Shown: positions 2,683 through 7,727 of the stretch, in pieces | Position numbering within the stretch: position 1 is the first letter of the stretch | How the letters are laid out: each line of letters opens with the position of its first letter | NCBI GenBank assembly: GCA_946628495.1 | Contig: CAMOWQ010000010.1 | Location: 1 to 34,563 of the forward strand | DNA length: 34,563 nucleotides | Direction: 5' to 3' | Source: an uncultured Treponema sp. | GTDB taxonomy: Bacteria; Spirochaetota; Spirochaetia; Treponematales; Treponemataceae | Notes under the pieces: generated by a model | What the model was told of the DNA's origin: nothing | The model's database searches: none | Seen by the model: the letters and a program-made list of their open reading frames with translations, nothing else | Translations under genes and position numbers: made by a program

Positions 2683-4269
2683 TTATTCTGCTGCAGAAAC
2701 CATTGCTTTAATAAATTCAGGGTCTTTCTGTGTTGCAGAAGGCTTATCAAAAACATTAAAGTTTCCGCCATCGTCCCAGAGAATTGTAAGCATTTTATAC
2801 CGCTTTGCCTGTTTTACAAAATAGTTTATCCAGTTTATACGTTGAGTAAGGTCTGTTGTTTTAACGGCACCGGTTTCTCCAATAATTACAGGAATTCCTT
2901 TTTGTGTATATTCCTCATCGATTTTGATAAAGAGTGCATCCAGCTGAATTTCCATCGCTCTTGTAAAATATGGAGTTGCATATTCAGGACCCGAGCCCAT
3001 TATATAGTTGTGGAAAGTTGCAATAAGACGGCCGTCTGCAGAATCAGAAGGCATTTTAAAGTATTTATTGTAAAGTGCAGCGCCGTCGGAACAAAGGCTT
3101 GGAATCATAACAAAACGGGTTGCATTGTTACCGCCAGATTTTCGGATTTCATCAAGACATGCCTGATTGTAAACGTTCAAAATTTCAAAATCTTTACGGC
3201 ATTCTTCGCATTTTCCCGAAGACATTGCAGGTGTCCATGCATGTATATGTCCCGCGTTTCTTGGCTCGTTCATTGTTTCAAAAATAAGGTGTTCATCGTA
3301 ACCGTTATTGAATGCCTGTGCAATCTGTTTCCAAATGGCTCGTAGGAACTGTTCAGATTCAACTTCGTCGCCAGTGCCTGTTCTGTAGCCTTCTCCGTGC
3401 TGCAAAGGTTTTGTCATTTTGTCGCGTACTGAGTGGTGTTCATTCAAAATTACATATAAACCTGCGTCCAAAGCCCAGTTTACAACAGTTTTTACGCGTG
3501 CCATCCAAAGCGGATCAATTGTGTAGTTTTCGTCGATGATGTGGTTTGCCCAGGTAACAGGCATTCTCAAAGTTTTGTAGCCTGCATCTGAATACATTTT
3601 TATGATTTCAGGAGTGATTTTTGGACTTCCCCAGAGAGTTTCGGATTTTAAGCCGATTGGATTTCCCCAGCCCCCGATTGATTCAAAGGTATTTCCCATG
3701 TTTACACCAACTTTCATGTCTTCAAGCAATTCAAACCCTGTGATTTTTGTGTTGATTTTTTTAGCAGGCATCGTGTCCAAAACCGGTTCATCTGGAGAAT
3801 AAATAAAGCTTGTTGCAATATCTTTCTTGAACGTAAGCGAATACAATCTTACCGAACCTGCAATTTCAAGTGCCTGAACGGAAATTTTGCTGACTGCCTT
3901 CTTTGATTTATCTTTGAGCGGAATAAGAAAAGAAGTTGTGCCTTCTTCGATGTATGCTTTTGTAATTTTTCCGTCTGAATATTCAATGCTTACCGTAAAA
4001 CCCATAAGGGCAGCTTTATTTGTAAGTTCAAGCGAATTGTAAGCACTTGCATCAACAGGAGGATTAAATTCCTGCGAAACGCCTGTTTTGCTCTGCATGA
4101 ATGTGATAGAATTTGTTTTTTTGCTGATTTTAGTCTTTGATTCATCCCAAGCAGTGAATTGCGAAAGATCGACTGCAAAAGAATCAGCTGCTTGTGCAAA
4201 AAGTTGTGATGTAAGACCGCAAATCATAAGGATAAACATCACACCGAATACAAAAAATTGTTTTTTCAT
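2683..4269 (-). CDS. Secreted GH5-family endoglucanase (cellulase)
   Basis: Predicted exported glycoside hydrolase of family 5 that cleaves beta-1,4-glucans or related beta-glycans. I start it at the internal ATG at 4269 (528 aa) rather than at the longer ORF start, because this Met has an AAGAGG Shine-Dalgarno and opens a clean signal peptide (MKKQFFVFGVMFILMICG...SQLFA, about 25 residues). Residues 28-150 form a small beta-rich accessory domain. Residues about 175-525 are the TIM barrel: VGVNMGNTFES at the start, NEHH near 276-279, acid/base E335 in FETMNEPRN, FHNY near 419-422, and nucleophile E465 in VIIGETGAV. An insert after NEP carries a CEEC pair. GH5 subfamily and true substrate cannot be fixed by eye. 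It is transcribed alone, divergently from the gene at 4435. Confidence 0.93.
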   Translation of the reverse strand: MKKQFFVFGVMFILMICGLTSQLFAQAADSFAVDLSQFTAWDESKTKISKKTNSITFMQSKTGVSQEFNPPVDASAYNSLELTNKAALMGFTVSIEYSDGKITKAYIEEGTTSFLIPLKDKSKKAVSKISVQALEIAGSVRLYSLTFKKDIATSFIYSPDEPVLDTMPAKKINTKITGFELLEDMKVGVNMGNTFESIGGWGNPIGLKSETLWGSPKITPEIIKMYSDAGYKTLRMPVTWANHIIDENYTIDPLWMARVKTVVNWALDAGLYVILNEHHSVRDKMTKPLQHGEGYRTGTGDEVESEQFLRAIWKQIAQAFNNGYDEHLIFETMNEPRNAGHIHAWTPAMSSGKCEECRKDFEILNVYNQACLDEIRKSGGNNATRFVMIPSLCSDGAALYNKYFKMPSDSADGRLIATFHNYIMGSGPEYATPYFTRAMEIQLDALFIKIDEEYTQKGIPVIIGETGAVKTTDLTQRINWINYFVKQAKRYKMLTILWDDGGNFNVFDKPSATQKDPEFIKAMVSAAE

Positions 4270-4922: not shown

Positions 4923-4951
4923 TTTACAGTCTTGATAAATATTTATAGAAT
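4923..4951 (+). promoter_or_regulatory. Sigma70-type promoter of the cobalamin riboswitch operon
   Basis: TTTACA (4923-4928), a 17-nt spacer and TAGAAT (4946-4951); both hexamers match the consensus at 5 of 6. The predicted transcript start near 4958 falls exactly at the 5' edge of the riboswitch, which supports both calls. Confidence 0.65.
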
Positions 4952-4956
4952 ACACA

Positions 4957-5211
4957 CGGGTATTTCAATGGAACTGTGTGAAAATCACAGACTGAATGCG
5001 CAACGGTAATAAGAGCGGTAAAACGGAAAAAACGGCTGCAATCACTGAAAGTAATTTTGGGAAGATTTGTTTTTTCTCTGCCGGAACAGGCGGGTTTCTT
5101 TAAGTCCGGAAACTTTGGTATCCGTTGGAATTTTATAATTCCAGGTATTCCGTATGGAGTGCTATCCATTAATTTTGGGAACTGCGCAGATTCGGTTCCC
5201 GGAGATAAAAA
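4957..5211 (+). promoter_or_regulatory. Cobalamin (B12) riboswitch with expression platform
   Basis: This 5' leader carries hallmarks of the adenosylcobalamin-type aptamer in the right order. They are GGAAC followed by TGTGTGAAAATCACAG (paired arms), then ACTGAATGCGCAACGGTAA (compare the family's RCxG..CCCGCxACUGURA block), a long variable insert, and a B12-box-like AGTCCGGAAAC at 5103-5113. Downstream are three successive short hairpins: GGAATT/AATTCC (about 5127-5142), ATGGA/TCCAT (about 5154-5169) and GGGAAC/GTTCCC (5177-5200). The last abuts the GGAG Shine-Dalgarno (5201-5204) of the lipoprotein gene, and no terminator U-run follows, so control is probably translational. It accounts for most of the 366-nt gap between genes. 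Repression by B12 of the downstream uptake genes is inferred from the family. Confidence 0.82.
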
Positions 5212-5742
5212 ATGAAAAAATCAATTTTCTCATTTGTAAGGCTGCCTGTTGCAGTACTTTTGTTGTGTTTTGCGTTCGTTCTTACATCATGTGGACCGAT
5301 GGTTAATCCTCAAAACAATCCTACAGCTACACCTGTTGCTTTAAATGATAACAGTAAGCTTATCGGTACATGGGAATCGTCTTTCGGCGAAATCTATGCA
5401 ATTGCAAAAACAAGTCTTTCTAACGGCGGTTCTTGGGGCGACTGCTATGCCGGCGACAATCTTGTAGTTCTTGCAGAAACAGAAACAAGTGGAATCATCT
5501 TTATTAAATATACAAGAGCAATGACTGCAGATTATAAGTATTCTACTGACGCTTCTGTTGCACCTGATGTTGGTAAATGGTATGCACTGGCTTACAAGAA
5601 TTTGACAGATACATCACTTTCTATTTCAGGAGCATATAAGGCAGATGGAAAATCTTCTGAAGATTCTCTTGAAAACGCAGTAAAAGAATTTACAGTTGAT
5701 AACGGCTATTTTGGAACTTACAGCGAATGTGTTAAAAAATGA
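5212..5742 (+). CDS. Small lipoprotein in the B12-regulated uptake operon
   Basis: Predicted 176-aa lipoprotein. It has a signal peptide with a clear lipobox (FVLTSCGPM, lipidated Cys27), a short linker rich in Asn/Pro/Thr, and a compact beta-rich domain starting LIGTWESSFGEIYAI that recalls lipocalin-like or small calycin folds. I recognise no named family. The gene begins 7 nt after the GGAG at the end of the cobalamin riboswitch, and its stop overlaps the start of the receptor gene (ATGA at 5739-5742), so the two are translationally coupled. Being first in a B12-controlled operon with a TonB receptor suggests a surface or periplasmic partner that captures corrinoid. That is an inference; Bacteroides BtuG plays such a role but belongs to a different fold. 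Confidence 0.85.
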   Translation: MKKSIFSFVRLPVAVLLLCFAFVLTSCGPMVNPQNNPTATPVALNDNSKLIGTWESSFGEIYAIAKTSLSNGGSWGDCYAGDNLVVLAETETSGIIFIKYTRAMTADYKYSTDASVAPDVGKWYALAYKNLTDTSLSISGAYKADGKSSEDSLENAVKEFTVDNGYFGTYSECVKK

Positions 5743-7727
5743 AAAAACTGACATCTTTTGCCGTTTTTGTGTGTTTTTTCCGGATAATTGCAGCACAGGA
5801 AATTACACTTCCTCCGATTTTTACTTATATTGAAGATTCTCTTGTAGAACAGAAGGAAGTTTTAACGGCAGAAGATATCAGCAGGGCAAACGTAACAGAT
5901 TTGCCCTCTCTTCTTTCGTCCGCAGGCATTCAGATTTTATCGTATGGTGCTTACGGACTTGAACAAAAACCAAGCATGCGTGGTTTTACAGACGAGACTG
6001 TCCGTGTGATTATTGATGGAATCTGCGTAAACAATCCTCAGTATGGAACTTTTGATTTTACTTCGCTTAATCTTGAAGATATTGAACGTATAGAAATTGT
6101 TCGCGGCGGTTTTACGGAAAGTGTTTCTGATGAAGGAGCCGTTGGCGGTGCAATTTATATTTCAACAAGAAAACAGGAAAAAGGGCAAAATTTTTCGTCG
6201 GATACTTCATTCTCTTCTTTTTTTAATATAGAAAAACCAGTTGATACAATAACCCAAGGGCTTGGGTACAAAGGTCAGATTTCTGAACAGTCTTATTTGA
6301 ATTTAAATTTAAAAGGAACAACGGCAGAAAATAAATATCTTTATGAATCTGCATCTGGCAGAATAAGACAGCGTGAAAATTCTTCGGTATTGGATGGAAA
6401 TTTAAGTGCCGATTTTCTTCATTACTTTAAATCCGGTTCCTCTATGAACATAAGCGATTTATTTTATGCAGGAAAAAAATGTACTCCTGGATCTGCTTCC
6501 GGTGTGGAATATGGGGTCCAGCAGGATTATTCTAATAATGCAACCGTTCATTTTGTACATCCGTCGTTCATGGATTTGTGTCGTTTTGAAAATTCCTTTG
6601 CGCTTTTAGATTCAATACGATATTACGATACTCAAAATGCGCATTCTTCGCACCAGCTGAATACAGGAAAATATTCTGGAAGTGCAAATTTCTTTAAAAC
6701 AGGTATTTTGCGGCAGTCGGCAGGCATAACAGCTGAACTTTCCCATCTTAATTCTACAGATGACGGCATTCATACTCAGGGGGAATTTGCCATAAAGAGT
6801 ACATCCCGCCTGGAAATTCCTCTTGGTACCACAGAAAATGCTTCTAAAACGAAGAATATGCTTGATATTTCTCTTCCTGTTTCGTTTAAAGTATGTGGCG
6901 AGAATCTTGCATTTGTTCCAAAGTTTGGAATTGGATTTGAATTTTCAAAAATTAATGTTTTTGCAGATGTTTACAGAATGGTTCAGTTTCCGAATATGGA
7001 CGATTTGTATTGGGACGACGGTATTTATAAAGGAAATCCTGAGTTAAAACCCGAAACAGGGTGGGGCGGGGAAATTACGATGAATGTTCATGATGTTCTT
7101 CTTCCTTTTTCACTTTGTGCATTCACCAATTATTACGAAAACAAAATTCAATGGACATCTTTGTCTATGAACGACGTAAGTACATCAGGCATTCAGAATA
7201 ATTTAACTCAAACTTCCGAACCGAACAGCCATTCTAGTTCTGGCGGAAAATCTGGAATGGCGCCGCAAAATATTTCAAGTGCATTTTATTTTGGTATTGA
7301 TTTTTCGGCTAAGAAAGAATTCGCGGATGGTCTGATATGCTTTAAGATGAACGCGGAATATTTATATACAATGTTGCTTGATAAATCAAAAATTACGTAC
7401 GGTAAAAAAATAATGTGGACTCCCGATTTTGTGGCTTCTTCGTCATTGTTTGTAAATATTCCAAAAGCAGAAAAATTTCCTGGAGCATCGCTTGGTTTAG
7501 AAATAAATTATGTTGGAAAACGTTATATTTCAAATTTGAATATTTCTTTTATGAAACCTTATGTTCTTGTAAATATTGTTGGGGAATCAAAAAAGATTAA
7601 GGTTTGGTCTTGCAATCTTGTTCCTTATTTTCGTTTGAATAATCTATTAAATACAAGATACGAAAGTGTAGAAGATTATCCGATGCCGGGTATAAATCTA
7701 ACAATCGGACTTAAACTTAGCAATTAA
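5739..7727 (+). CDS. btuB: TonB-dependent outer-membrane receptor, probable cobalamin transporter (BtuB-like)
   Basis: A 662-aa outer-membrane protein for TonB-driven uptake. It has a signal peptide (MKKLTSFAVFVCFFRIIAAQ), then a plug domain at about 35-150 with typical motifs (VTDLPSLLSSAGIQI, KPSMRGFTDETVRVIIDG, IERIEIVRGG), and a long alternating-hydrophobic beta-barrel with GNPELKPETGWGGE and a C-terminal LNNLLNTRYESVEDYP. Control by the upstream cobalamin riboswitch through the coupled lipoprotein gene is the main reason for naming cobalamin as cargo. By sequence alone it could serve another siderophore or corrinoid. No TonB, ExbBD or BtuCDF genes lie in the window. The last residue is Asn rather than the usual terminal Phe/Trp of barrels. 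Its 3' end overlaps the convergent kinase gene by 11 bp. Confidence 0.85.
   Translation: MKKLTSFAVFVCFFRIIAAQEITLPPIFTYIEDSLVEQKEVLTAEDISRANVTDLPSLLSSAGIQILSYGAYGLEQKPSMRGFTDETVRVIIDGICVNNPQYGTFDFTSLNLEDIERIEIVRGGFTESVSDEGAVGGAIYISTRKQEKGQNFSSDTSFSSFFNIEKPVDTITQGLGYKGQISEQSYLNLNLKGTTAENKYLYESASGRIRQRENSSVLDGNLSADFLHYFKSGSSMNISDLFYAGKKCTPGSASGVEYGVQQDYSNNATVHFVHPSFMDLCRFENSFALLDSIRYYDTQNAHSSHQLNTGKYSGSANFFKTGILRQSAGITAELSHLNSTDDGIHTQGEFAIKSTSRLEIPLGTTENASKTKNMLDISLPVSFKVCGENLAFVPKFGIGFEFSKINVFADVYRMVQFPNMDDLYWDDGIYKGNPELKPETGWGGEITMNVHDVLLPFSLCAFTNYYENKIQWTSLSMNDVSTSGIQNNLTQTSEPNSHSSSGGKSGMAPQNISSAFYFGIDFSAKKEFADGLICFKMNAEYLYTMLLDKSKITYGKKIMWTPDFVASSSLFVNIPKAEKFPGASLGLEINYVGKRYISNLNISFMKPYVLVNIVGESKKIKVWSCNLVPYFRLNNLLNTRYESVEDYPMPGINLTIGLKLSN

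Follow-up and report, generated by a model that had tools for sequence, protein, structure and literature searches.

We identified a locus in an uncultured Treponema in which a cobalamin riboswitch precedes two overlapping genes, one for a small lipoprotein and one for a BtuB-like TonB-dependent receptor, and the role of this operon in vitamin B12 uptake is well supported. We favour, with a probability of about 0.6, a reading in which the riboswitch controls the two genes as a coupled pair, the lipoprotein captures corrinoid and the receptor imports it. The window (the whole stretch of DNA analysed, 34,563 nucleotides) carries the following features of the locus:

4923..4951, + strand: promoter-like site TTTACA-17-TAGAAT, 10/12 consensus bases
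4970..5113, + strand: cobalamin riboswitch aptamer (RF00174), cmscan 50.2 bits, model positions 47-167 of 189
5114..5211, + strand: putative expression platform (leader from aptamer to start codon), from the fold of 5100-5225
5212..5742, + strand: open reading frame for a small lipoprotein of 176 aa (ATG 5212, TGA 5742), with signal peptide (residues 1-26), lipid Cys27 and predicted calycin-like barrel (about residues 52-175)
5739..5742, + strand: ATGA in the sequence, where the lipoprotein stop overlaps the receptor start by 4 bp
5739..7727, + strand: BtuB-like TonB-dependent receptor of 662 aa (Pfam Plug at residues 39-138, barrel at 194-620)

Riboswitch, receptor and genomic setting

An initial annotation made from the letters of the window had pointed to cobalamin-aptamer motifs and a B12-box-like sequence ahead of the lipoprotein gene. 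Rfam recovered both: RF00174 matched well above its gathering score (50.2 versus 31.5 bits, E 8e-10), and the B12-box end of the match reads AGTCCGGAAAC (5103-5113). This site is the sole Rfam match within the window and the sole RF00174 match in its own genome (2.57 Mb, 82% complete). From the family assignment we infer that the aptamer binds a corrinoid and represses expression. The downstream leader (5100-5225) folds more stably than shuffled sequences (z -3.6), and a predicted hairpin at 5173-5204 pairs the GGAG ribosome site at 5201-5204. Because this ribosome site would be held within the predicted last hairpin of the leader, the fold fits, and suggests, control at the level of translation. 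The proposed promoter fared less well. The site at 4923-4951 does resemble the consensus, but sites of this kind are no commoner in the region than expected by chance (8 found versus 10.6 expected in shuffled sequence).

The coupling of the two genes and the nature of the second had been read correctly, as ATGA joins the lipoprotein and receptor genes and the product of the latter contains Plug (1e-16) and TonB_dep_Rec_b-barrel (2e-14) domains. Among NCBIfam models it scores best against TIGR01779 (B12 receptor), although at 78.2 bits it falls far below the equivalog cut-off of 599.7, and we therefore use the label BtuB-like. When a profile of 16 operon receptors was compared with the PDB, the top four entries were 8bmx, 8blw, 8p98 and 8p97, each matched near full length, and BtuB structures outranked colicin I and siderophore receptors. 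BtuB is named in two of these four entries, all of which presumably stem from work on Bacteroides BtuB.

Elsewhere, the genome encodes one FecCD (BtuC-type) permease and one BtuF-type (Peripla_BP_2) protein, on the same contig, together with one TonB; as in most loci, btuF lies outside the operon. No CbiC was found in the 82% complete assembly. This gene content (one BtuF-type protein, one BtuC-type protein, TonB and no CbiC, in an incomplete assembly) fits that expected of a corrinoid scavenger. A 936-residue frame with a B12-binding domain is like methionine synthase in size only. The only other Plug protein of the genome, a 954-aa frame (locus L232, 1703-7635, contig C26), is clustered with ExbB/ExbD-like genes and the single TonB.

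The lipoprotein family and its predicted fold

Judged by its sequence, the 176-aa protein is a bacterial lipoprotein: the signal peptide ends in the lipobox LTSC (residues 24-27), and Cys27 is invariant in 37/37 aligned homologues. It had been described as belonging to no recognisable family, and searches of Pfam, NCBIfam, PHROGs and the PDB bear this out, returning nothing above noise. Within the family, sixteen aromatic positions are kept in at least 70% of members. At one locus (L114, 132-1088) a single 319-aa protein appears to contain two tandem copies of the lipoprotein domain.

AlphaFold models were obtained for the window lipoprotein (pLDDT 88, core above 95) and for a distant family member from locus L113 (pLDDT 83). 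Both have eight strands with a helix ahead of the last strand. In fold searches both matched lipocalin-family barrels and the Treponema pallidum lipoprotein TP0751, and the L113 model also matched avidins. All of these matches were weak (E 0.008-0.05, TM at most 0.55), and for this reason "calycin-like" serves only as a working label for the predicted eight-stranded barrel. Calycins are a ligand-binding superfamily. The expectation that the lipoprotein would differ in fold from BtuG agrees with the models, which are eight-stranded barrels and not beta-propellers.

Conservation of the operon among spirochaetes

Among 146 genomes of the genus, 45 gave lipoprotein matches. One of these was rejected as false, being a weak match (E 0.003) inside a 1127-aa frame (L075 in genome G041). 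For the 43 homologues outside the window, a TonB receptor lies downstream, directly or one gene away, in 40, and a relative of the window's own receptor lies downstream on the same strand in 39; at two of the latter (L068, L072) a large lipoprotein gene stands between the small lipoprotein and the receptor. At L032 the downstream receptor is the more divergent one. Of the three homologues lacking a receptor, L049 lies at a contig end, L048 is an orphan and L065 has a riboswitch but no receptor nearby. Counted per genome, 41 have both lipoprotein and receptor and 92 have neither, with discordance in 3 and 10; genome relatedness would inflate any P value drawn from these counts, and hence we rely on none. 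The ten genomes with a receptor but no detected lipoprotein are mostly explained, either by contig ends (G002, G010, G117, G081), by a divergent lipoprotein copy (G046, found by profile; G140, by eye) or by receptors that are more distant (G005, G012, G115, G131).

A cobalamin or AdoCbl-II riboswitch scoring above the cut-off lies directly upstream of the lipoprotein in 25/43 of these homologues, and six more have a sub-threshold match in the right place. With about 0.45 RF00174 matches per genome in the genus, chance placement upstream of the lipoprotein is negligible. About a quarter of the genus loci have no riboswitch match whatever. Most other cobalamin riboswitches of the genus (L123-L148) lie ahead not of this lipoprotein but of proteins that are secreted or lipid-anchored and carry the motif EILVVSFGTSYN, which we take to be that of CbiK cobalt chelatases.

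A second family of larger lipoproteins, about 500-650 aa long and without a Pfam match, appears repeatedly in these operons (L039 8314-10824, the same as L088; L068 7202-9154; L072 9459-10994; L049 587-2227; L032 8400-9933). Its members are encoded next to the small lipoprotein or are fused to the C-terminus of the latter (836 aa in L039). At L049 a weak riboswitch match is followed first by a gene of this family, and in genome G016 a sub-threshold riboswitch (C126:2269-2426) is followed by the large and then the small lipoprotein gene.

To cover a wider range, 85,462 prokaryote species genomes were scanned by an alignment-based method. This yielded 40 lipoprotein loci, all in spirochaetes, using search patterns that derive from this genus and may miss homologues elsewhere. 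The loci come from Treponema berlinense, T. bryantii, many rumen and gut Treponema and more distant members. Distant homologues (26-31% identity) retain the riboswitch, lipoprotein and receptor. Three of them (L111, L113, L115) have a strong upstream riboswitch (59-76 bits) and a receptor directly downstream, which at L113 and L115 is followed by a BtuF-type binding protein, a FecCD-type permease and an ABC ATPase (L113 by Pfam). The btuF-btuC-btuD series is also found at L195 (the same contig as L113), L200, L208, L213 and L216. Phylum-wide, a TonB receptor stands beside the lipoprotein in 36/39 loci, and 13/15 loci of one such set have a cobalamin-class riboswitch; hits weaker than about 1e-6, which align mostly over the N-terminal half that includes the signal peptide, were left uncounted here. 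The order can vary, as at L202 (riboswitch, receptor, lipoprotein). At L065 and L211 the lipoprotein gene is the first after a cobalamin riboswitch, and there is no receptor in the neighbourhood, which argues that its link to corrinoid is its own. In the genome carrying L065 (G103; lipoprotein alone under the riboswitch, 2906-3597), a receptor is found on another contig (L231, 325-3363), directly behind a gene that, judged by eye, reads as a ZnuA-like metal-binding lipoprotein.

A low-GC group (26-30% G+C, probably Brachyspira; L181-L190, L192, L196-L199, L204) often has tandem copies of the small lipoprotein, with between one and four per genome. These genomes also encode another small lipoprotein, which matches no Pfam family, and most of them a divergent Plug receptor. 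In this group btuF and btuC were present in one case, and RF00174 had no match in the ten loci scanned.

The initial annotation had staked its proposal on the presence of an aptamer and on the company kept by homologues of the lipoprotein. The aptamer is there, and homologues in other spirochaetes, far from lying mainly away from corrinoid-related genes, are overwhelmingly found beside cobalamin riboswitches, BtuB-like receptors and btuFCD.

Proposed function, alternatives and significance

We propose that the locus encodes the outer-membrane half of a system that takes up corrinoid (vitamin B12). At low corrinoid levels the riboswitch would leave the ribosome site free, and coupled translation would then make the lipoprotein and the BtuB-like receptor together. 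At the outer membrane, the most likely task of the lipid-anchored, calycin-type lipoprotein is to bind corrinoid and pass it on to the receptor, with which the lipoprotein may form a physical complex. The receptor would import the corrinoid with TonB energy, and its transport further inward would fall to the one BtuF-type and the one BtuC-type protein, whose genes lie elsewhere in the genome. The best explanation, we infer, is that the lipoprotein captures corrinoid on behalf of the receptor, in the manner of BtuG. There is also precedent for the kind of ligand: TP0751, a treponemal lipoprotein of lipocalin fold, binds the tetrapyrrole heme, so that a treponemal lipocalin is able to hold a tetrapyrrole (PMC7521688).

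A different place in the same pathway has to be weighed. The lipoprotein could face the periplasm, where it would take corrinoid from the receptor to BtuF or store it. We consider this unlikely, yet by analogy a serious alternative, because the T. pallidum lipocalins TP0751 and Tpp17 have been argued to be periplasmic small-molecule binders (PMC7521688). In keeping with it, no surface-export signal is discernible after the lipid cysteine, where acidic residues do not stand out clearly against a background set that was small and impure. However, the commonest partner of the lipoprotein is the receptor and not BtuF, whose gene is outside the operon in most loci, and the known BtuB-paired lipoproteins, albeit from another phylum, act at the surface (PMC10404256). 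The tight coupling and gene overlap with the receptor could also be expected of a protein that aids the receptor as an assembly factor, lid or stabiliser and binds no corrinoid, and among the lipoproteins of Bacteroides B12 operons, BtuL and BtuK2 did not bind B12 (PMC12751083). Such a helper role seems to us improbable, since at L065 and L211 the lipoprotein gene follows a cobalamin riboswitch but has no receptor gene in its vicinity, the predicted fold is calycin-like with many conserved aromatics, and the tandem copies seen in some genomes are easier to reconcile with ligand scavenging than with a part in assembly.

The operon could also import something other than a corrinoid, such as heme or a metal complex, and merely be regulated by B12. 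The score of the receptor below the BtuB equivalog cut-off would allow for this, as would the close relative of the receptor behind the ZnuA-like gene in G103. We regard this as very improbable: BtuB proteins are the best structural relatives of the receptor family, complete operons continue with btuF-btuC-btuD (though this type of transporter also serves siderophores and heme), and beyond its only FecCD and only Peripla_BP_2 protein the genome offers no obvious importer for B12.

Lipoproteins that capture B12 are known from the Bacteroidota, and in the gut they influence the outcome of competition for scarce cobamides. The E. coli BtuB-BtuFCD system comprises a TonB receptor, a periplasmic binding protein and an ABC importer, with a riboswitch on btuB; unlike the receptor described here, whose gene is paired with that of a lipoprotein, that BtuB is not known to have a lipoprotein partner. 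BtuG is a beta-propeller, far larger than the small calycin-like barrel predicted here, and no sequence relation between the two was found. The resemblance is one of arrangement and proposed job: in Bacteroides thetaiotaomicron, too, a B12 riboswitch governs an operon that holds the genes for both the lipoprotein and a BtuB receptor (PMC6143338, PMC10404256), and the spirochaete protein would, like BtuG, capture corrinoid and feed the receptor. BtuJ and other DUF4465 proteins are likewise small, secreted or lipid-anchored B12 binders from riboswitch-controlled uptake operons; however, they form an augmented beta-jelly-roll (PMC12751083, PMC13398666), unlike the barrel modelled here, and the DUF4465 Pfam model is matched by 0/37 members of the spirochaete family. 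BtuH, an accessory B12-binding lipoprotein of Bacteroidota cobamide operons, differs in having Ig-like PKD domains and a globular C-terminal B12 domain (PMC8941943). It has no Pfam or PDB sequence match to the spirochaete family, and the solved BtuH was absent among the family-profile matches in the PDB up to E 10. The lipoprotein may work like BtuG, BtuH or BtuJ, but it belongs to none of these families. With TP0751 and Tpp17, lipid-anchored proteins of a treponeme, it would share the eight-stranded lipocalin barrel, in its case as a prediction (PMC7521688). TP0751 is among the best fold matches of the models, although there is no detectable sequence relation and identity in the structural alignments is 6-12%.

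Taking the family as a whole, we give about even odds to a broader proposal, in which a corrinoid-capture lipoprotein of calycin fold evolved independently in spirochaetes and serves BtuB-like receptors throughout the phylum. Some lineages would have built on this scheme with tandem copies of the lipoprotein and with additional lipoproteins, so far undescribed, that are encoded in the same operons. In the open-access literature we found no description of outer-membrane B12 uptake in spirochaetes, of such a lipoprotein or of a lipocalin that binds cobalamin; to our knowledge, this would be the first calycin-fold B12 capture protein in bacteria.

Looking ahead, if the proposal is true, spirochaetes, rumen and gut Treponema among them, have a fold-distinct, phylum-wide counterpart of the Bacteroidota capture lipoproteins, and the strategy arose more than once. 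It would also give a function to an unannotated lipoprotein family and provide small, easily expressed candidate B12-binding proteins, with which the passage of B12 across the spirochaete outer membrane becomes directly testable.
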